A stretch of DNA of 6,587 bases, taken from NCBI GenBank assembly GCA_025454125.1, contig JALOPA010000332.1:1-6587 (forward strand), given 5' to 3'. Within the stretch, counting starts at the first letter, position 1; the number at the start of each line of letters is the position of its first letter. Both the position numbers and the translations under genes were made by a program. Below are positions 189 through 6,299 of the stretch, in pieces. The notes below the pieces were generated by a model. That model was not told where the DNA came from and searched no databases. It was given only the letters and a program-made list of their open reading frames with translations. The stretch comes from Thermodesulfobacteriota bacterium (lineage in GTDB: Bacteria > Desulfobacterota > DSM-4660 > Desulfatiglandales > HGW-15).

Positions 189-707
189 ATGGCAAAAAAG
201 AAGCTGTTGTTTTTGATGATGGTCGTCTTTCTCGTCAGCCCGGTGGTCAACGCCCAAGCGCAGAAGGTGGCCGACCAGCTGCTGGCCGGGCTTACAACCG
301 TGAACCTGCGGATCATGTATTCCGACGAGTCGGGCATGAAATCCACCGGCTCAGAGTCCAGCCAGCTGACCTCGGATACGGAACGGCAACTGAGCGATGC
401 GGGCCTCAAGGTGGTTTCTTCCGGCGAGTTTGATCGTTTGATTGCCTCCCGGGGTTATCCCATCGCCCTCCTGGATGTGGAGGTGAGAACCGGCAAGATC
501 AAAGACACGGAGTTGAAAGTCTACAACCTCAGCATCAGGCTTCGACAACTCGCCTATGTGGCAAGAATGCCTACGCTCCGGTTCCTCGGAGGCACCTGGG
601 ACGTGACCGATTTTGGGGTCTTTGATGACTTCTCGTTCCTCAGGCAAAGACTCAGTGCAGTCATTGCCCGGCTGGTGAGCGACTACAAATCAGAAAACCC
701 GAAATAA
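189..707 (+). CDS. Exported protein of unknown function, 172 aa
   Basis: The start ATG at 189 has a strong Shine-Dalgarno (AAGGAGG, 175-181) with 7-nt spacing. Residues 1-24 form a classical Sec signal peptide: KKK at 3-5, a hydrophobic core (LLFLMMVVFLV) and a signal peptidase I-type site around VNA-QA or AQA-Q (residues 20-25). There is no Cys lipobox, so a soluble periplasmic protein is likelier than a lipoprotein. The mature part looks alpha/beta: a strand at about 38-45 (VNLRIMYSD), a helix near 62-72, the segment AGLKVVSSGEFDRLIASRGY (about 71-90), strands at 92-99 and 109-120, and a C-terminal amphipathic helix (FLRQRLSAVIARLVSDY). I see no catalytic motif and recognise no family. The upstream gene fragment is 32 bp away on the same strand, consistent with an operon; the 3' end meets an inverted octamer array. 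Certain as a gene, unknown in function. Confidence 0.88.
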   Translation: MAKKKLLFLMMVVFLVSPVVNAQAQKVADQLLAGLTTVNLRIMYSDESGMKSTGSESSQLTSDTERQLSDAGLKVVSSGEFDRLIASRGYPIALLDVEVRTGKIKDTELKVYNLSIRLRQLAYVARMPTLRFLGGTWDVTDFGVFDDFSFLRQRLSAVIARLVSDYKSENPK

Positions 708-714
708 GCGGAGA

Positions 715-864
715 ATTGGAGTACTGGAGGAATGGAGTATTGGAGTACTGCAACAGCGGAAGATCCATGGCTTTTGGTTCTGCCATTACTCCATTACTCC
801 ATCATTCCAACATCCCAGTATTCCAGAATCCCAGAATCCCAGAATTCCAGTATTCCAGAATCCC
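715..864. repeat. Octamer (8-bp) tandem repeat array with inverted arms, region A
   Basis: The left arm (715-750) has four and a half 8-bp units in strict register: ATTGGAGT, ACTGGAGG, AATGGAGT, ATTGGAGT, ACTG. A 34-nt non-repetitive spacer follows (751-784). The right arm (785-864) has ten further units in the opposite sense: ATTACTCC twice, ATCATTCC, AACATCCC, AGTATTCC, AGAATCCC twice, AGAATTCC, AGTATTCC, AGAATCCC. Read as reverse complement, the right units fit GGRRTNNT, the same family as the left arm. The arms can fold into a long imperfect hairpin. The array starts 8 bp after the stop of the exported protein and ends 4 bp before the stop of the convergent acyl-CoA synthetase, so it could serve as a bidirectional 3' structure. 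No U-tract is present. Function unknown. Confidence 0.9.
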
Positions 865-868
865 CCTC

Positions 869-2428
869 CTACTTCCCGTACTCCTTCTTGGCCATCTCCG
901 CCAATTTGAATTTCTGCACCTTCCCCGAGCGCGTCATGGGGAACTCCTTGACGAATTTGAAATGATGCGGGGCCATGGTCTTGTCGATCTTTCTTTTGGC
1001 ATAACGGGCCAGGGCCTCTAGGGTGAGTTTGGCGCCCTTTTTCAATTTGATCCAGGCTGCCACCTCCTGGCCGAGTTCTTCATCGGGAAAACCGAAAACC
1101 TGGACCTCTGAAACTTCAGGCAAGCCATACAGGATCTCCTCCACTTCGGCCGGATGGATCGGCACTCCGGCCCTGAGGATGACGTCTTTCAGGCGGCCGG
1201 TGATTTTCACGTACCCCTTCTCGTCGATTTCCCCCAGGTCCCCCGTGTGAAACCATCCCTGTTTGTCCACCGCAGAGGCTGTGGCGGCAGGCATCCTGTA
1301 ATACCCCTTCATGAGCAGGCCCTTGACGCAGAGCTCTCCCTGGGTGTTCGGCGGGAGGGTCCGGCCTGCTGCGGGATTGACGATCTTCACCTGGTTGCAC
1401 TCCAGGGGCGTGCCGATGGTGGAGGCTCTCGTCTCCAGCGGGTCCCCCGGATGGGTCATGGTGATCCAGGAGCTGGCCTCTGTGCTGCCGTAGGCAACGG
1501 CAAGGGCTGTGACGCCCAGACCTTCCACCATCCTTTTCATCAGTTCCATGGGGCAGGGCGCCCCTCCGATGACCCCTCTTTTCACGGTAGCCCACCGCTT
1601 GCCTTTGAATTCGGGGTGATCCAAGAGCGCACGGATCATGCTGGGCGTTCCGTAAACCGCGGTGGCTTTTTCTCTGTAAATGGCCTTCAGCACCTTGGAG
1701 GGATAAAAAGAGAGACCCGGCATGACCAGGGTCGCGCCGGTCAAGAGCCCGGTCAGGGCAATGCAGGTGTTCCCAAACATGTGAAAGAGAGGGAAGAAAA
1801 GACAAAGCCGGTCCTCCCCGGTCAGACCTTGGCGCTTGGCAGAGGCCAGAGACTTGTTGATCAATCCGAGGTGATCCAGCATCACCCCCTTGGGCGCGCC
1901 CGTTGTCCCTGAGGTGTACATGATGGCCACCGTGTCCTCCGGGCTGACCTGGCTCTCTCTTTGGTCCAGATCCTCGGAATCGGGGTCATCGCCCATGCCC
2001 AAAAGCTCGGTCCAGAGCATCATCTCCGGTCGCGACTCCCTCGCGATCAGGATGATATGTTCAAGGGTATGAGCCTGGTCTCTGGCCTCGAGAATGAGAT
2101 CCACGTATTCGTCTTCCTCGACGCCTCTGGCCATGATGATGGCCTTGGATTCCGACTGCTCAAGCACATACTGCAGGTCCCTCAGCCCTGCGCCCGGATC
2201 CACAGGCACGAAGATCGCGCCAATTTTGATGAGGGCCAGTTGGGCCACGATCCACTCGGGGATGTTTGGAGCCCACAACGCCACCCGGTCCCCCGGATCA
2301 ATGCCCATTCGGATTAAGCCCTTGGCCGCCCGGTCCGCCTCCCAGAGAAGAAGGGAGTAGTTGTAGCGGAGGGCTTTGGCGGCAATTTCGCTGACCATCC
2401 GGCCGATTGTTTTGCGCACGATCTTCAT
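869..2428 (-). CDS. AMP-forming acyl-CoA synthetase (fatty-acyl-CoA ligase family), 519 aa
   Basis: A member of the adenylate-forming (ANL) superfamily, expected to activate a carboxylic acid with ATP to an acyl-adenylate and transfer it to CoA in the cytoplasm. Core motifs are intact: the P-loop YTSGTTGAPKGV (171-182), FPLFHMFG (212-219), the adenine-binding YGSTE (313-317), HTGDLG with the ribose-binding Asp397, the hinge GRLKDVILRAG (411-421), and the C-terminal catalytic lysine region TRSGKVQK (Lys503). The overall pattern fits medium/long-chain FadD-like ligases, but the chain length of the substrate cannot be read from the sequence. The ATG at 2428 is preceded by AGGAGGT (2435-2441, minus strand) with 6-nt spacing. 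Oddity: between IAAK (residue 17) and LRYNYS (residue 19 on) the roughly 13-residue segment usual in relatives (pattern PDxxAxx-x-G) is absent, which makes the protein short for the family. It lies downstream of the methyltransferase on the same strand with a 216-bp gap, so linkage is uncertain. Confidence 0.93.
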   Translation of the reverse strand: MKIVRKTIGRMVSEIAAKALRYNYSLLLWEADRAAKGLIRMGIDPGDRVALWAPNIPEWIVAQLALIKIGAIFVPVDPGAGLRDLQYVLEQSESKAIIMARGVEEDEYVDLILEARDQAHTLEHIILIARESRPEMMLWTELLGMGDDPDSEDLDQRESQVSPEDTVAIMYTSGTTGAPKGVMLDHLGLINKSLASAKRQGLTGEDRLCLFFPLFHMFGNTCIALTGLLTGATLVMPGLSFYPSKVLKAIYREKATAVYGTPSMIRALLDHPEFKGKRWATVKRGVIGGAPCPMELMKRMVEGLGVTALAVAYGSTEASSWITMTHPGDPLETRASTIGTPLECNQVKIVNPAAGRTLPPNTQGELCVKGLLMKGYYRMPAATASAVDKQGWFHTGDLGEIDEKGYVKITGRLKDVILRAGVPIHPAEVEEILYGLPEVSEVQVFGFPDEELGQEVAAWIKLKKGAKLTLEALARYAKRKIDKTMAPHHFKFVKEFPMTRSGKVQKFKLAEMAKKEYGK

Positions 2429-2434
2429 GGGCCC

Positions 2435-2441
2435 ACCTCCT
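2435..2441 (-). promoter_or_regulatory. Shine-Dalgarno site of the acyl-CoA synthetase
   Basis: On the minus strand AGGAGGT sits 6 nt before the ATG at 2428. This near-perfect site fixes the start, which matters because the N-terminus appears to lack a family-typical segment: the missing residues are internal and are not explained by a misplaced start. Confidence 0.8.
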
Positions 2442-2466
2442 CTCCCGCATCAAGCAGGGATGTTCC

Positions 2467-2499
2467 CATCCTCGCGGCGCCGCAAGGCTCCGCGGGATG
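2467..2499. repeat. GNRA-capped inverted repeat (hairpin) upstream of the acyl-CoA synthetase
   Basis: On the + strand CATCC-T-CGCGG (2467-2477) pairs with CCGCGGGATG (2490-2499), leaving T2472 as a bulge. Inside, after a C/T mismatch, GCC (2479-2481) pairs with GGC (2486-2488) around a GCAA loop (2482-2485), a GNRA-type tetraloop on the + strand. The total is about 13 base pairs. No T-run follows on either strand, so it is not a standard intrinsic terminator. It could be a 5' leader structure of the synthetase mRNA (39 nt before its start codon) or a REP-like palindrome. No function is proven. Confidence 0.6.
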
Positions 2500-2630
2500 A
2501 GCCGGGTTTATTCCAGTCATGGCAGGTGTGTTTTTTCGTTGGAGAACGCAAACGTGTACCCGGCCTGCTCCTCATGGAAACAAACCGTAAAGCCATCATA
2601 TGAAAAACTCCGTCACAAAGCAACCTGAAG

Positions 2631-2643
2631 GAGGCACCGCCTC
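2631..2643 (-). terminator. Small stem-loop just after the methyltransferase stop
   Basis: GAGGC (2631-2635) and GCCTC (2639-2643) form a 5-bp stem with a 3-nt loop that begins one base after the minus-strand stop codon at 2645-2647. There is no U-tract downstream on the minus strand, so its role as a terminator is doubtful; it may be a weak 3'-end structure or chance. Confidence 0.25.
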
Positions 2644-2644
2644 A

Positions 2645-3226
2645 TCACCCGCGCAATGACAAAAGCGCGGTATGGCTCATGAATATTCTGGGGTTTTCCG
2701 TGGCGGTAAAACCGGTCTCTTCCGCCCTTTTCAGAGTCTGTTCGAACATCGACCGAGTGACGTGAATCGCAGGCTCGGCCACCAGGAATTTCCCTCCCGG
2801 TTTGAGAAGGAGTTGTATCTCTCGAAAAAGCTTGCTCTGATCCGGGACCTCGTGCACCATCCAGAAGGCAAGCGCAAAGTCAACAGGCTCCTGGATGCCG
2901 ATGGAATCCGCCTTGCAGAGATGGGGCACGATGCGTTGTTCCAAGCCCTGCTTGGCCGCCCTTCTCTTGAGAGACTCCAGCATCGAGGCCTGGACGTCCG
3001 CAGCGATCACTTTGCCTTTTTCCCCGACCATCCGTGCGAGAGGGATGGAAAAATACCCCATGCCCGGCCCCACATCCAGCACCGTGTCCCCTTCACGAAC
3101 ATAAGGGCCAAGCATTTCCTCCGGGTTGTGAAAGAGCTTCCGGAGGACATTGTCAAAGGTAAAGCAGACCCACGAGGGACACACGTGTGGTTCATCGGAA
3201 AAAAGGTGGCGGAAGGGATTTTTCAT
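2645..3226 (-). CDS. Class I SAM-dependent methyltransferase, 193 aa
   Basis: A Rossmann-fold methyltransferase predicted to transfer a methyl group from S-adenosylmethionine; the acceptor cannot be told. Motif I is VLDVGPGMGYF (49-59), the glycine-rich SAM loop; VIAADVQASM (73-82) provides the acidic residue (Asp77) that usually binds the ribose; VDFALAFWMVHEV (115-127) is the motif IV region; LKPGGKFLVAEP (141-152) is the conserved post-motif strand. Before the core is a distinctive lead segment with HVCPSW (14-19), CFTFDN (21-26) and LFHNPE (31-36), which I associate with a subfamily of small methyltransferases in anaerobic bacteria and archaea (recollection, not verified). Length is normal for a single-domain enzyme. 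A modest AGAGGA (3230-3235, minus strand) precedes the ATG closely. It diverges from the ABC-F gene across 84 bp and is followed by the synthetase on the same strand. Confidence 0.9.
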   Translation of the reverse strand: MKNPFRHLFSDEPHVCPSWVCFTFDNVLRKLFHNPEEMLGPYVREGDTVLDVGPGMGYFSIPLARMVGEKGKVIAADVQASMLESLKRRAAKQGLEQRIVPHLCKADSIGIQEPVDFALAFWMVHEVPDQSKLFREIQLLLKPGGKFLVAEPAIHVTRSMFEQTLKRAEETGFTATENPRIFMSHTALLSLRG

Positions 3227-3310
3227 CGTTCCTCTTTTATGTTAGGGTATCCACGATGCTTGAGGAAAGCAAGAAGATCTCTGTTTGAATGAAGGGTTGA
3301 CTGATTTGAT
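3227..3310. promoter_or_regulatory. Divergent intergenic region between methyltransferase and ABC-F genes
   Basis: This 84-bp spacer must hold at least one promoter if the two divergent genes are transcribed from here. It is more AT-rich than the flanking genes. I see no good -35/-10 pair: on the minus strand TTGCTT (3267-3272) stands 17 bp from TACCCT (3244-3249), a poor -10. On the + strand the only purine-rich Shine-Dalgarno candidate for the ABC-F gene, GAAGGG (3291-3296), is 14 nt from its ATG. No operator palindrome was seen. Confidence 0.35.
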
Positions 3311-5290
3311 ATGAGTCTGGTTACCGTTCTTAACTTGTCGCTCACTTTTGTGGGGAGGGAAATCCTTAAGGACGTCAATTTCCAGGTCGAGCCGGGGGAC
3401 CGGATCGGCCTGGTGGGCCCTAACGGATCCGGGAAAACGTCGCTCCTCAGGATGATTGTGGGAGAACTCCACCCGGACAAAGGGGAAATCCGGGTCACCA
3501 AAGGCGTCCGCCTGGGCTATTTGCCCCAGGATATTTACGAAACCCTGTCCGGCGGTCTTCTCCAGTTCATGGTGGACTCTGTCCCATCCCGGGTGCAACT
3601 GAAGGAGCAGTTGGTGAGTCTTGAGGCCTCCCTGGGAAATCACCCGGATCCGCAAATCCAGTCAAAACTCGCGGCCCAGCTGGCGGAGGTCCACCACAAA
3701 ATCATCGACCTCGATGCCCAATATCCCCTTCACCTCGCCGAAAAAATCCTCCTGGGTCTCGGGTTCAAGCCTGAGGACTTTGAAAGGCCCATGAGTTCCC
3801 TGAGCGGCGGCTGGAAAATGAGGGCGGCCCTGGCCAGCCTGCTCTACCAGAGCCCTGACCTGCTTCTTTTCGACGAGCCCACCAACCACCTCGACGTGCC
3901 GTCCGTGCACTGGCTTGAGGATTTTCTGCGGTTCTACAAAGGCGCCATGATCCTGATCTGCCATGACAAGGAGTTCCTCAACCGCCAGAGCGAGAGGACC
4001 ATCAGTTTCGAACCTGAAGGGCTGAGGTTCTACAGCGGGAACTACGAGCACTATCTCAAGGCCCGGGAGGAGGAGGCCAGGGTTCTCGAATCAAGGGCGA
4101 AACACCAGGAGCAGAAGGTCAAAGAGGCTGAGCGGTTCATCGAGCGGTTCCGGTACAAGGCCTCCAAGGCAAGGCAGGCCCAGAGCAAAATCAAGCTCGT
4201 TAAAAAGATGGAGCTTGTGGAAACCTTTCAGAAGCGCAAGACCATCCGCTTCTCTTTCCCGGAAGTGCCCAGGAGCGGAAGAGAGGTGCTTTCGATCCAG
4301 GGCCTCACCAAGAGCTTCGGCCCCCTGACCCTTTACAAGGATCTCAACCTGGGAGTGATGCGCGGGGAGAGGGTCGCCATCATCGGCCCCAACGGCGCAG
4401 GCAAGACGACCCTCCTTCGCCTGATTGCAGGGGAGATCCGGCCCGACGAGGGCCGGGCCACGCTCGGGCACAACGTCACCATGAGCTACTATGCCCAGCA
4501 CCTCTCGGAAATGCTTGACCCCAACAAAACCATCCTCGCCGAGGTCTACCAGGTCGTGCCTCACGAGACCATAAGCTTTGTCCGGGGGGTGTGCGGAGCA
4601 TTCCTTTTTTCCGGGCCTGACGTGGACAAGTCCGTGGGGATACTCTCCGGCGGAGAGCGGGCAAGGGTTTCTCTTGCAAAAATCCTGGTCAAGCCCGGCA
4701 ATTTCATGGTCATGGACGAACCGACCAATCACCTGGACATCATCTCCTCGGAGATGCTCATCGATGCCTTGCAGGAGTTCGACGGCACTCTCCTCTTTGT
4801 CTCCCACAACCAGTCCTTTGTGAACCGGCTCGCCACGAAAATCTGGGACATGCGGGACAGGGCGATTGTCGAGTACCCGGGAACTCTGAATGAATATTTC
4901 GAACACCTTGCAGGAAAGGAAGCGGAGGCAGCAGCAGAAACGGACCGGCGGGAGGAGGCCGAGGCGGACGATGCGCCTTCCCGGCAGAAGGGGAAGGCTT
5001 TGAGAAAGGAAAAAGCGGAGAAACGCAGTCTCATCAGTACCGCGCTCAAACCCATTCAGACAAAGCTCAAGCAGCTTGAAGAACGAATTGACGAGATGGA
5101 GAAAAGAAGAACAGAGCTGGAACGCCTTCTCGCAGATCCCGACCTGTTCAAAGACAAGAGCAAGAGCGTTCCTCTGCTCAATGAATACGGCGAGGTGAGG
5201 AAAAAGCTGGACGAACTCATGGGGAGATGGGAGTATCAACAGGGGCAGCTGGAGTCGGCCAAGAAGGAACTGGGGATTACGAATCCGTAA
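3311..5290 (+). CDS. ABC-F family ATPase (Uup-like, with C-terminal coiled coil), 659 aa
   Basis: A soluble protein with two ATP-binding cassettes and no membrane segments, as in ABC-F factors, which act at the ribosome on stalled or tRNA-bound states. NBD1: Walker A GPNGSGKT (36-43), signature LSGGW (164-168), Walker B/D-loop LLLFDEPTNHLD (184-195) with catalytic Glu189, switch His218. NBD2: Walker A GPNGAGKT (359-366), signature LSGGE (445-449), FMVMDEPTNHLD (465-476) with Glu470, switch His499. Both ATPase sites look intact. Between them is a charged helical linker (about 245-315, RFIERFRYKASKARQAQSK), the position of the P-site tRNA-interaction motif. Residues about 575-655 are a heptad-like coiled coil (KLKQLEERIDEMEKRRTELE), as in the Uup C-terminal domain, which in E. 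coli binds DNA. The Arm insert in NBD1 looks short, so a housekeeping role is likelier than antibiotic resistance; this is inference. The ATG at 3311 matches the family N-terminus, though its Shine-Dalgarno is weak. Confidence 0.96.
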   Translation: MSLVTVLNLSLTFVGREILKDVNFQVEPGDRIGLVGPNGSGKTSLLRMIVGELHPDKGEIRVTKGVRLGYLPQDIYETLSGGLLQFMVDSVPSRVQLKEQLVSLEASLGNHPDPQIQSKLAAQLAEVHHKIIDLDAQYPLHLAEKILLGLGFKPEDFERPMSSLSGGWKMRAALASLLYQSPDLLLFDEPTNHLDVPSVHWLEDFLRFYKGAMILICHDKEFLNRQSERTISFEPEGLRFYSGNYEHYLKAREEEARVLESRAKHQEQKVKEAERFIERFRYKASKARQAQSKIKLVKKMELVETFQKRKTIRFSFPEVPRSGREVLSIQGLTKSFGPLTLYKDLNLGVMRGERVAIIGPNGAGKTTLLRLIAGEIRPDEGRATLGHNVTMSYYAQHLSEMLDPNKTILAEVYQVVPHETISFVRGVCGAFLFSGPDVDKSVGILSGGERARVSLAKILVKPGNFMVMDEPTNHLDIISSEMLIDALQEFDGTLLFVSHNQSFVNRLATKIWDMRDRAIVEYPGTLNEYFEHLAGKEAEAAAETDRREEAEADDAPSRQKGKALRKEKAEKRSLISTALKPIQTKLKQLEERIDEMEKRRTELERLLADPDLFKDKSKSVPLLNEYGEVRKKLDELMGRWEYQQGQLESAKKELGITNP

Positions 5291-5350
5291 TCAGTCATCC
5301 CTTCGACGCTGCTCAGGGCCTTCGGCAGTCATCAGTGAACAGAAAGGAAC

Positions 5351-5380
5351 GGTGCAAGGTACAAGGTACACGGTGCACGG
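5351..5380. repeat. Heptamer array GGTRCAM
   Basis: Four 7-bp units in register: GGTGCAA, GGTACAA, GGTACAC, GGTGCAC, then GG. No inverted partner for this unit family is evident nearby. Confidence 0.8.
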
Positions 5381-5389
5381 AAGAAAATC

Positions 5390-5417
5390 AGTGACAAGTG
5401 ACGAGTAACGAGTGACA
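5390..5417. repeat. Heptamer array AGTGACA/G, first copy
   Basis: Four 7-bp units: AGTGACA, AGTGACG, AGTAACG, AGTGACA. It is directly repeated at 5542-5562 and is the reverse-complement family of the array at 5580-5607. Confidence 0.85.
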
Positions 5418-5423
5418 AGAAGA

Positions 5424-5444
5424 AGACAGTAGACAGAATAGAAA
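5424..5444. repeat. Short heptamer run AGACAGW
   Basis: AGACAGT, AGACAGA and a degenerate ATAGAAA follow in 7-bp register. Only two units are close matches, so this is the weakest of the arrays. Confidence 0.45.
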
Positions 5445-5462
5445 ACAAAATATGGAAGCAAT

Positions 5463-5518
5463 CACGAAAACACGAAACTTGCCCGCCGTTAATTTGGCGG
5501 GGGACGAAAGCACGAAAG
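5463..5518. repeat. CACGAAA copies flanking a hairpin
   Basis: Two CACGAAA copies (5463-5469, 5471-5477) and, after the hairpin, ACGAAAG at 5504-5510 and CACGAAAG at 5511-5518 surround a stem in which CCCGCC (5482-5487) pairs with GGCGGG (5496-5501) over an 8-nt AT-rich loop. Unlike the other arrays, the flanking units are in the same orientation on both sides. Confidence 0.65.
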
Positions 5519-5541
5519 AAGAGGGGGTTATATAGAAACCC

Positions 5542-5607
5542 AGTGACAAGTGACAAGTAACAAACAAAAAGGCTTTCTCTCGTCACTCGTCACTCGTGAC
5601 TCGTTAC
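5542..5607. repeat. Heptamer inverted-arm cassette AGTGACA / TCGTCAC
   Basis: The left arm has AGTGACA, AGTGACA, AGTAACA and a degenerate AACAAAA (5542-5569). A 10-nt spacer follows, then the right arm TCGTCAC, TCGTCAC, TCGTGAC, TCGTTAC (5580-5607). The right units are reverse complements of GTGACGA-type units, so the arms can pair imperfectly. All units keep a strict 7-bp period. Confidence 0.85.
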
Positions 5608-5614
5608 TGAACTT

Positions 5615-5670
5615 ACAACGGACAACTGGCAACCTGCGACCTGCCACTGGCCACCTGCCGCCCGCTACGG
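5615..5670. repeat. Degenerate GC-rich heptamer array
   Basis: Eight 7-bp units in unbroken register: ACAACGG, ACAACTG, GCAACCT, GCGACCT, GCCACTG, GCCACCT, GCCGCCC, GCTACGG. The units drift from AC-rich to GC-rich along the array. The last unit ends 2 bp before the AAAAGG Shine-Dalgarno of the 107-aa gene. Confidence 0.75.
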
Positions 5671-5686
5671 GGAAAAGGTTTCTTTT

Positions 5687-6010
5687 ATGGAGATTGATGA
5701 AAAGCACAAGAGCCTCTTGATGGCCATGGGTCTCAAAGATGACGACTTTACTCTCTTCGACGGCAAAACCGTGACCTATGAGGTCGACCCGGAAAAAGGG
5801 GTTCGCCTCTACGACCCCTATTACGCCACTTCCTACTCGGAGTACATCGATGTGGACGGCTGGACATCTTGGAGCACGGAGCAGGACACCTTCACCTCCG
5901 ACATCCTGGCCGAAGCGAAAGCCGAGGCGGAGCGCAGGGAAAAGCTGAGCCCCAAGCCCACCCAGGACGAAATCTCCCATTCGATCAAGGTGAAGTTCGG
6001 AAAGGAGTAA
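5687..6010 (+). CDS. Conserved-looking hypothetical protein, 107 aa
   Basis: A small soluble protein with no signal peptide, membrane segment or Cys. The ATG at 5687 follows AAAAGG (5673-5678) at 8-nt spacing. Residues 1-16 (MEIDEKHKSLLMAMGL) look helical; the middle is rich in Asp, Tyr and Trp with DGKTVTYEVDPEKGVRLYDP (25-44), then YYATSYSEYID and DGWTSWSTEQDTF, suggestive of a compact beta fold; the end (SDILAEAKAEAERREKL, then a short basic tail) is a charged helix. I recall similar proteins in deltaproteobacterial genomes but no assigned function. It stands alone: repeat arrays run up to its Shine-Dalgarno on one side and begin 31 bp after its stop on the other. Codon use and base composition look like real coding sequence, in contrast to the flanks. 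Confidence 0.85.
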   Translation: MEIDEKHKSLLMAMGLKDDDFTLFDGKTVTYEVDPEKGVRLYDPYYATSYSEYIDVDGWTSWSTEQDTFTSDILAEAKAEAERREKLSPKPTQDEISHSIKVKFGKE

Positions 6011-6013
6011 ACT

Positions 6014-6035
6014 GCTGTCGGCTAGAGCCGACAGC
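6014..6035. terminator. Perfect 10-bp stem hairpin after the 107-aa gene
   Basis: GCTGTCGGCT (6014-6023) and AGCCGACAGC (6026-6035) are exact reverse complements separated by AG, so in RNA a stem of about 9 bp with a TAGA loop is expected. It begins 3 nt after the stop codon, as a 3'-end structure would, but the downstream sequence (TTGAGGGG) is not a U-tract. It may be a Rho-dependent 3' end protector, a non-canonical terminator or a REP-like palindrome. Confidence 0.6.
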
Positions 6036-6041
6036 TTGAGG

Positions 6042-6220
6042 GGTAAAGGGACAGATGAACACAGGCACAAGGGCACAGAGGGCCAAAGGGACAGAGCAAA
6101 ACGATTTTTCTGCTTTGTGACTTTGCGATTTTGTCCCCTTGCCTCTTTCTTTGTGCCTTTGCACCTTTGCCACTTTGTCCCTTTCTTACTTTGTGCCTTT
6201 GTGCCTTTGCGACTTTGTGC
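6042..6220. repeat. Octamer (8-bp) tandem repeat array with inverted arms, region C
   Basis: The left arm has seven 8-bp units in register (6042-6097): GGTAAAGG, GACAGATG, AACACAGG, CACAAGGG, CACAGAGG, GCCAAAGG, GACAGAGC. A 15-nt spacer follows. The right arm (6113-6220) has thirteen units of the complementary family: CTTTGTGA, CTTTGCGA, TTTTGTCC, CCTTGCCT, a 4-bp half unit CTTT, then CTTTGTGC, CTTTGCAC, CTTTGCCA, CTTTGTCC, CTTTCTTA, CTTTGTGC twice, CTTTGCGA, CTTTGTGC. The period is exactly 8 apart from the half unit. Left arm purine-rich, right arm pyrimidine-rich, as in region A, but the unit sequence is different. Its role is unknown. Confidence 0.9.
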
Positions 6221-6299
6221 CTACGTTGTAACCTAGAAACCAAACTGAAGTCTGCGCCCAAAGGCGAAGGCTGTTACGTGTCCCGAGAGTGATCATAAA
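6221..6299. other. Leader of the helicase gene
   Basis: This 79-bp non-repetitive segment lies between the octamer array and the GTG start. GAGAGTGATC (6285-6294) matches the extended anti-Shine-Dalgarno complement (GAGGTGATC) with one extra base and lies 5 nt before the GTG. No clear promoter hexamers were seen. Confidence 0.4.

Follow-up and report, generated by a model that had tools for sequence, protein, structure and literature searches.

The 6,587-nt stretch of contig JALOPA010000332.1 from a Thermodesulfobacteriota bacterium analysed here (the window) contains three intergenic cassettes, and the arrays that compose them, with periods of 8, 7 and 8 bp set in inverted arms, are confirmed as real and far above chance expectation. 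Comparison with related genomes places them in a class of intergenic DNA, here termed word arrays, which occurs at high density in some genomes of the group. Each array may be regarded as a single 7-9-mer word repeated in tandem with degenerate copies, and a lineage would use several such words, each present in many places. It is the genome-wide pool that appears to set the word, and we tentatively favour, with confidence a little short of even, a reading in which genome-wide word families would spread by copying and subsequently change by slippage of units.

The period scan (score ≥ 10, periods 4-30) located four arrays of period 8 and five of period 7 in the window (Table 1; the fourth period-8 array covers 6149-6222), together with an additional match at 6121-6176 that was assigned a period of 28. 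When the window was shuffled twenty times by single bases, the scan returned 13 matches in total over the same range of periods, and none of these had a period of 7 or 8. Tandem Repeats Finder (TRF) concurred on the periods and locations of the arrays, and a repeat finder was likewise in agreement. The inverted arms are complementary at 82% over 28 nt in cassette 1 (716-743/783-810), at 82% over 38 nt in cassette 2 (5388-5425/5573-5610) and at 72% over 50 nt in cassette 3 (6047-6096/6173-6222). All three cassettes are purine-first and G-first; the arms of cassette 1 are equal in their A-T balance, and only G/C differs between them. Under the automatic pairing rule cassettes 2 and 3 were scored as paired and cassette 1 as unpaired, with one direct pair counted within cassette 2.

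These results bear on an earlier note, made from the letters of the window alone, which had described a common architecture with different words and the purine-rich arm first in each cassette; both points were borne out. The note had also called the units exact at 8, 7 and 8 bp. The periods stand, but the units are not perfectly strict, as TRF reports 14% indels at 6064-6096. Complementary inverted arms were recovered in all three gaps as claimed, but the best partner of 5573-5610 in cassette 2 is 5388-5425 and not 5542-5563, and this gap had been drawn too simply: it holds nested arrays, including GGTGCAA from 5351 and AACCTGC from 5610, so that cassette 2 is probably best described as a nest of several word arrays. 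The spacers, given in the note as 34, 10 and 15 nt, are called here as 32, 5 and 52 nt, values that depend on how the arm ends are defined.

The frequency of such arrays was assessed in samples from four relatives, namely 775 kb of G071, a near relative picked after an array had been seen in its orthologous gap, 158 kb of G081 (2,999 N), 400 kb of G070 (31,669 N) and 314 kb of G007, where 7 of the 20 stretches lie on contigs picked for word matches. The G071 sample yielded 100 arrays of period 7-9 (or 14, 16, 18), a density of about one per 8 kb: 61 of period 7, 17 of period 8, 10 of period 9 and 12 of period 14, 16 or 18. All other periods together contributed 12 arrays, and one triplet shuffle of this sample gave none with a period of 7-9 (or 14, 16, 18). 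Among the 96 arrays that could be placed, 83 lie outside genes. Counting gaps of at least 60 bp, arrays are found in 46/234 tandem, 12/57 convergent and 5/64 divergent gaps, the divergent gaps being poorer in arrays than the rest (p=0.019). Such arrays are fewer elsewhere, with 6 in the G081, 12 in the G070 and 11 in the G007 sample. Period-9 arrays of the same general kind (TGGTCTRTC and TTTGGTTTG types), a period that the earlier note did not name, were noted at L007:43-175, L007:5150-5301 and L173:13860-14229.

The orientation of the arrays was determined by counting neighbouring arrays of one word as inverted or direct pairs, and inverted pairs as G-first or C-first. In addition to the relatives, the counts include the G322 family, which takes in orthologous loci, and two samples of viral-collection contigs (A and B), in each of which the pairs were found through one word and consequently are not independent. 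Inverted pairs exceed direct pairs in G071 (22:17), viral sample A (53:13), viral sample B (145:54) and the G322 family (20:4), and the ratio in G070 is 3:0. Among the inverted pairs, G-first against C-first order amounts to 16:4 in G071, 39:7 in sample A, 104:21 in sample B, 15:4 in the G322 family and 3:0 in G070. Inverted repeats that are not arrays gave 35:30 in G071 and 13:15 in G007, while the N in the G081 and G070 samples make the corresponding controls uninformative. Purine-first order follows in G071 (12:5), sample A (37:14) and sample B (102:24) but not in G070 (0:3), and A-first order is close to even in G071 (11:9) and sample A (25:21), with 74:38 in sample B, 11:5 in the G322 family and 0:3 in G070. 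Removal of the search words from the viral samples left 18:7 and 13:3 for G, 19:9 and 13:3 for purines, and 10:15 and 6:7 for A; summed over the samples without the search words, the totals are 47:14, 44:17 and 27:31, respectively. When each word is counted once, G-first order is still seen at 14:3 and 12:2 in samples A and B, and G071 gives 9:3. The earlier note had anticipated an excess of inverted arms and a consistent purine-first order beyond the window. The excess is present in four samples but not in all, G070, G007 and G081 making up the rest (the latter two are weighed below); the purine-first order is real, though it is carried by G and not by A, and support for the polarity is moderate after once-per-word counting.

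Whether the G-rich strand coincides with the sense strand of the closest gene was also considered. No such link was seen for unpaired arrays, which show no preferred direction with respect to the closest gene end in G071 (19/35 and 7/16) or in G322/G362 (7/13 and 2/7). When all arrays near gene starts in G322/G362 are taken together, they display a C-rich sense bias, with 2/12 G-rich (p=0.039).

The words recur well outside the window, and the proposal of the earlier note that the cassettes arose from unrelated local seeds is not sustained, since CACAAAG and AGTGAC are found in other genomes and TGGAATRA is part of an element dispersed in G071. The word of cassette 3 is CACAAAG; in the window it stands one gap further along than in G071. 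Three CACAAAGN words in a row were found in 13 of the 297 genomes of the phylum of G001, a Deltaproteobacteria metagenome-assembled genome (MAG), and in 3 of the 149 genomes in the phylum to which G088, a Phycisphaerae MAG, belongs; three copies of the reversed CACAAAGN word were found in none of the 297 + 149 genomes of both phyla, and none of seven further genomes has three CACAAAGN words in a row. AGTGACN is present three times in a row in 4 of the 85 genomes of the order (13 matches), and the reversed word in 1 of the 85 (11 matches). Within the viral collection, threefold CTTTGTG was found in 7 stretches, and a 23-mer of the TGGAAT word had no match. A cluster of five CACAAAG matches within about 3.5 kb was observed on contig C6 of G440 (125294-128813; L392, L395, L397, L399), a genome that belongs to the phylum of the Phycisphaerae MAG.

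Two of the words form part of dispersed elements in the relatives. In G071, the TGGAATRA cassettes at L183 and L188 match that at L196 over 274 bp (88%) and 281 bp (77%), flanks and spacer included; the best pairs agree at 76-88% over about 280 bp, and L174 and L175 match the element partially. A spacer-edge pattern beside the right arm recurs at 11 loci in G071, whereas the remaining 84 genomes of the order have no match to it. The arms of cassette 1 are related to TGGAATRA and, by eye, GGCTTTTGGTT.CTG is present at the corresponding place before the right arm; most probably, cassette 1 represents a copy, now diverged, of a dispersed non-autonomous element. When searched against the G071 sample, cassette 2 had no match and cassette 3 had two, confined to array units. 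In the relatives the CACAAAG word likewise forms a palindromic element, dispersed and about 130 bp long. Copies resemble one another in the arms as well as in the core, with 86% over 155 bp for a pair of G073 loci and 87% over 188 bp for a pair of G485 loci, and the element is found at no fewer than ten other places in each of G322 and G362. As read by eye, CCACAAAG words come first, followed by a core, in many cases a hairpin, and then by CTTTGTGG; at some loci the element begins a few bases past a stop codon. Dispersed copies with arms and interior in common, as expected of miniature inverted-repeat transposable elements (MITEs), are hence seen for the G071 TGGAATRA and the relatives' CACAAAG elements, and in the window cassette 1 has only part of its spacer in common with the G071 element. 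Three copies of about 155 bp in G073 (L364, L376, L377) have AATATTGA..TCAATAT-like ends outside the CACAAAG words, possibly a terminal inverted repeat.

Comparison of orthologous gaps, which the earlier note had proposed as a check, revealed gain or loss of cassettes, extension and replacement of words. The gap between the ABC-F and small-ORF (open reading frame) genes that holds cassette 2 measures 396 bp in the window and 0-12 bp in 7 of the 13 relatives having both genes; in G071 it measures 139 bp and contains an AATGTCC array and a CACAAAGA/CTTTGTGA cassette. The next gap carries CAATATT and GGATTGGG arrays in G047 and an GTTAAGTG/AACCATTC pair in G040. Gap sizes and contents across the 13 relatives indicate that the content is lineage-specific.

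Closer comparison was possible between G322 and G362, which align at 77-89% in chained blocks. Both have a CACAAAG element in the gap between a DUF177/YceD-like gene and rpmF (names assigned by sequence reading), and their cores differ by one compensatory pair and two central bases. One arm of these orthologous CACAAAG elements differs in length by 8 bp, with one base between. Both flanks of this gap were located in 16 of 19 loci: the CACAAAG element is present in three (G322, G362, G535), two others (G537, G534) keep the element ends with CACAGAG in both arms and another core, two have other 7-mer arrays, two have other palindromes, and seven are array-free, six of these with 91-100 bp. In a further gap, designated C, 15 genomes hold GGGGAAAA pairs (two), AGTGGYC pairs (four), an AGTTTCG pair (one), a right arm only (one), a short run (one) or none (six), which shows replacement of the word between species at an orthologous position. 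In gap B, also compared across 15 genomes, a promoter-like stretch recurs. It is flanked by AGTTCAA/TTGAACT arms in G322, stands without arms in G362, and has other words on both sides in G534 (loosely matched) and G536 (right arm by eye) and a pair on one side only in G537. Since these arms were gained or lost around resident DNA, the cassette was not delivered in one piece. A fourth gap has the AGTTCAA word in both G322 and G362, with spacers that differ in length and sequence. The right arm of G536, the CACAGAG elements, the promoter-like stretch and the palindromes of G538 and G532 were read by eye. In combination, the aligned gaps show that arrays in the relatives come or go, vary in length by entire units, and differ in their word from one species to another at the same place. 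Further elements, of the types TCATCCTGAGCGAAGCGAAG...CTCAGAATGACA and TTCCCAAGC..GCTTGGGAAC, were observed nested between the arms in the spacers of G537, G535 and G362 cassettes in gaps B and C (L445, L446, L465, L466).

The arrays are often arranged at gene boundaries as an inverted pair in which the G-rich arm precedes and a spacer separates the two, and they would be copied from a genome-wide pool of the same word; some families would spread as one piece and others arm by arm around resident DNA, after which unit slippage would alter the arrays. The main alternative in which no other loci take part is that a seed at the locus was expanded by slippage and that the inverted arm arose by fold-back or template switching; the earlier note had suggested templated or slippage synthesis acting on different seeds. 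The change in unit length between the orthologous G322 and G362 elements, the single unit-like remnant in array-free G362 where G322 has an array, and the drift of units along arrays (the last two by eye) are all compatible with such local generation, and template switching between inverted repeats has been described as homogenising their arms in the available portions of two reports (PMC8604942, PMC8794818). Copying by fold-back predicts a mirrored order of units, and this was not found: 2/83 pairs have it at p≤0.1, and in the G322 family 1/16 pairs at p<0.05 while 6/16 lean in the opposite direction (p≥0.95), in tests whose power is low owing to the short arms. The gap C cassette of G534, in which both arms are alike in the outer-to-inner order of variants, is mirror-like by eye. 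Nor are the arms homogenised within cassettes, as their similarity within as opposed to between cassettes of one word is 0.904/0.917 (n=9), 0.860/0.849 (n=23) and 0.876/0.888 (n=148), the last with p=0.077 in the wrong direction for homogenisation. The unmirrored order, together with arms that are no more alike than across cassettes, argues against local fold-back and for genome-wide word families, and the recurrence of words across loci, genera and phyla likewise counts against a purely local origin, which we consider unlikely. In several AGTTCAA cassettes (L428:8598-8729, L432:6863-7091 and L438:10547-10695), G/A variants of the unit were observed to shift along both arms in a common 5'-3' direction, contrary to what a mirror copy would give.

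The arrays may also be kept by selection, with a possible role as hairpins or paired binding sites between transcription units. If a factor read two inverted words, with selection holding word and orientation and with factor and word changing together, the genome-wide words, inverted pairs, variable spacers, resident DNA and position at gene boundaries would all be accounted for, and IHF/HU has been proposed for comparable pairs in Geobacter metallireducens in the available part of that report (PMC2700814). Several words per genome and the replacement in gap C would nevertheless demand many factors, unpaired arrays have no orientation to the nearest gene end, and array-free orthologous gaps are common, so that this explanation is rated as rather unlikely. 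Selection for hairpins, as bidirectional terminators or stabilisers of mRNA 3' ends in which pairing keeps the arms complementary, is highly doubtful. The RNA folds of the three stretches are stable (z-scores of -4.0, -4.0 and -4.3), but values near -4 are expected by construction from complementary arms and hence lend weak support. The lower number of arrays in divergent gaps, the compensatory pair in the CACAAAG core of G322 and G362, and CACAGAG in both arms at the same gap of G537 and G534 (by eye) point the same way, whereas the existing order of units pairs no better than shuffled units, arms may sit on both sides of a promoter-like stretch, and many relatives lack arms at the same gap. 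An assembly artefact is practically negligible as an explanation: the named relatives are metagenome-assembled, but the same words and orthologous cassettes recur in separate assemblies, arrays lie within stretches of a 2.6-Mb contig of G070, and similar arrangements have been described in Geobacter metallireducens and Xanthomonas genomes, according to the accessible text of those studies (PMC2700814, PMC4692102). Finally, each lineage might have a small dictionary of 7-9-mer words that is written in trans at gene boundaries, as G-first inverted pairs around resident DNA. The genome-wide pool, not the opposite arm, would determine the word, and the writer would copy from a common template, either other arrays or an RNA in the manner of a telomerase-like reverse transcriptase, and would not work by fold-back at the locus; we regard this as improbable.

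A number of observations weigh against the spread of genome-wide word families by copying, or against the polarity associated with it. Inverted pairs are lacking in G007 (0:7) and G081 (0:0). Once the search words are removed and each word counts a single time, G-first order in the viral samples falls to 6:4 and 6:1, and the CACAAAG family is an exception, being C-first and A-first. In the viral-collection contigs AGTGAC was found in 58 stretches and the reversed word in 98; specificity of AGTGAC in this collection is thus unsupported, the reversed word being commoner. The ABC-F/small-ORF gap measures 62-305 bp without detected arrays in 5 of the 13 relatives, so extra gap length is not always due to arrays. 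G362 retains one unit-like remnant in gap B (by eye), which would allow loss instead of gain, and the link between cassette 1 and G071 consists of about 15 bp of spacer and related arms. Lastly, non-array sequence has a dispersed homologue in 27 of the 62 array gaps of G071, as against 51 of the 156 array-free gaps of at least 200 bp (p=0.16); for all array-free gaps the figure is 68/265 (p=0.008 vs array gaps). Spread in one piece is consequently not clearly above background and would explain at most part of the arrays, and the non-significant excess over long array-free gaps lowers our confidence in the favoured reading.

Table 1. Genes and array features of the window, numbered from its first nucleotide
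Feature	Position	Strand	Basis or remark
Lipoprotein-like ORF	189-707	+	Sequence reading; no Pfam family
Cassette 1 left arm, degenerate octamer GGAGTAYT, G-rich on +	710..750	+	Period scan, TRF
Cassette 1 spacer, GGCTTTTGGTT.CTG common with G071 TGGAATRA elements at matching place	751..782		Compared by eye
Cassette 1 right arm, complementary octamers CCATTACT to CCAGTATT	783..864	-	TRF, period scan, inverted-repeat comparison
AMP-ligase	869-2428	-	
Methyltransferase	2645-3226	-	
ABC-F ATPase	3311-5290	+	
Cassette 2 outer left array, heptamer GGTGCAA	5351..5380	+	TRF, period scan
Cassette 2 left arm, heptamer AGTGACR	5390..5419	+	Period scan, TRF, inverted-repeat comparison
Cassette 2 inner CACGAAAA words flanking CCCGCC/GGCGGG hairpin	5463..5520		By eye; hairpin present in fold
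Cassette 2 second AGTGACR array	5542..5570	+	TRF, period scan
Cassette 2 right arm, heptamer YCGTCACT	5576..5608	-	Period scan, TRF, inverted-repeat comparison
Cassette 2 outer right array, heptamer AACCTGC	5610..5665	-	Period scan
107-aa ORF	5687-6010	+	No Pfam family
Cassette 3 left arm, CACAAAGG-type octamers with indels	6039..6096	+	TRF, period scan, inverted-repeat comparison
Cassette 3 right arm, octamer CTTTGTGC	6113..6222	-	Regular from 6149 (scan), looser earlier (by eye)
DEAD-box-like protein, start only	from 6300	+	Weak match below family cut-off

Six genes were called in the window (Table 1); gene calls are those of our own codon model. The ABC-F protein is 70% identical to that at locus L001 of G001 and 58-64% identical to those at ten other loci titled Deltaproteobacteria, Desulfobacteraceae or Desulfobacterales, titles by which the phylum of G001 is taken to be Desulfobacterota, and the gene order around it is partly conserved in relatives. 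The 107-aa ORF between the ABC-F and DEAD-box-like genes is conserved at 14 loci of relatives (52-63% identity), where it often almost abuts the ABC-F gene. A perfect 10-bp inverted repeat (GCTGTCGGCT AG AGCCGACAGC) at 6014-6035 starts three bases past the stop codon of this ORF, directly before cassette 3, and has no T run after it. The stretch 5299-5325 holds CCCTTCGAC...CTCAGGGCCTTCGG, which resembles a motif of many bacterial intergenic regions. The right arm of cassette 1 ends 4 bp from the stop codon of the AMP-ligase gene. By eye (no terminator scan), cassettes 1 and 3 lack, behind their right arms, the T run that comes directly after the G+C-rich stem of an intrinsic terminator. The canonical GGTGCAA word of cassette 2 was found once in the set of relatives, at L134 of G081. 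Rfam gave no match at gathering score within the window. Cassette 3 had no match at E≤0.01 among 50,697 phage records, and cassette 2 had one weak match (E 0.07) among 72,556 plasmid records, low-complexity filters weakening both searches; 83 plasmid records have partial ABC-F matches.

Degenerate tandem heptamers in intergenic DNA are known from cyanobacteria as short tandemly repeated repetitive (STRR) sequences, which are not known to form inverted pairs. Dispersed non-autonomous palindromic elements of intergenic DNA include MITEs and the repetitive extragenic palindromic (REP) sequences and bacterial interspersed mosaic elements (BIMEs), of which REP/BIME are marked by a conserved tetranucleotide within a short hairpin and by an associated RAYT gene. 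In the relatives, the CACAAAG and TGGAATRA families fit this dispersed palindromic pattern, but, unlike MITEs and REPs, their arms are tandem arrays of words, and some cassettes hold resident DNA between the arms.

The closest parallels are found in Geobacter metallireducens, where three classes of sites consist of tandem 8-mers GTTGCTYN, TCTCCGTS[Y] repeats and 7-mers MTYCTGA, are multicopy and mostly paired on opposite strands at variable distance, and were suggested to be IHF/HU sites in the portion of the report available (PMC2700814). The window likewise has intergenic tandem 7- and 8-mer arrays on opposite strands with variable spacers, and words of the relatives are also multicopy, but the words of the window match none of the three classes by eye, and the available portion of that account contains no polarity rule, orthologous turnover or sharing across phyla (PMC2700814). 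In Xanthomonas, the accessible text describes the degenerate GGGAATC heptamer with 186 patterns and 70 convergent site pairs in Xcc and 183 and 75 in Xac, as a single word studied for G-quadruplexes (PMC4692102). Convergent corresponds to inverted and G-first here, and the heptamer pair of cassette 2 is of this kind, while cassettes 1 and 3 have period 8; the words of the window are not GGGANTN by eye, and several words of 7, 8 and 9 bp are found here. TAACTGA forms intergenic tandem direct repeats in Beggiatoaceae, Cyanobacteria and Bacteroidetes, with a transfer mechanism described as not evident in the available text (PMC4679880), and resembles the present case in being an intergenic tandem heptamer common to distant lineages. 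Multicopy direct repeats of 6-42 nt are reported for G. bemidjiensis in the part of the source available (PMC2996986). The searched literature, which left most subscription papers outside its scope, contained no report of the polarity rule or of orthologous turnover, and six array strings had no match in it. The architecture thus seems to be a known one with other words, and what seems new is how general it is, together with the polarity, the turnover at orthologous gaps and the pool result.

Arrays that occur about every 8 kb in G071 and differ at the same gap between species imply that the process behind them has a strong effect on the intergenic DNA there, and any mechanism must explain both the G-first polarity and the pool result. 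The orthologous series makes a scattered curiosity of Geobacter, Xanthomonas, Beggiatoaceae and cyanobacteria testable, as it can be asked whether a word is copied from elsewhere in the genome.

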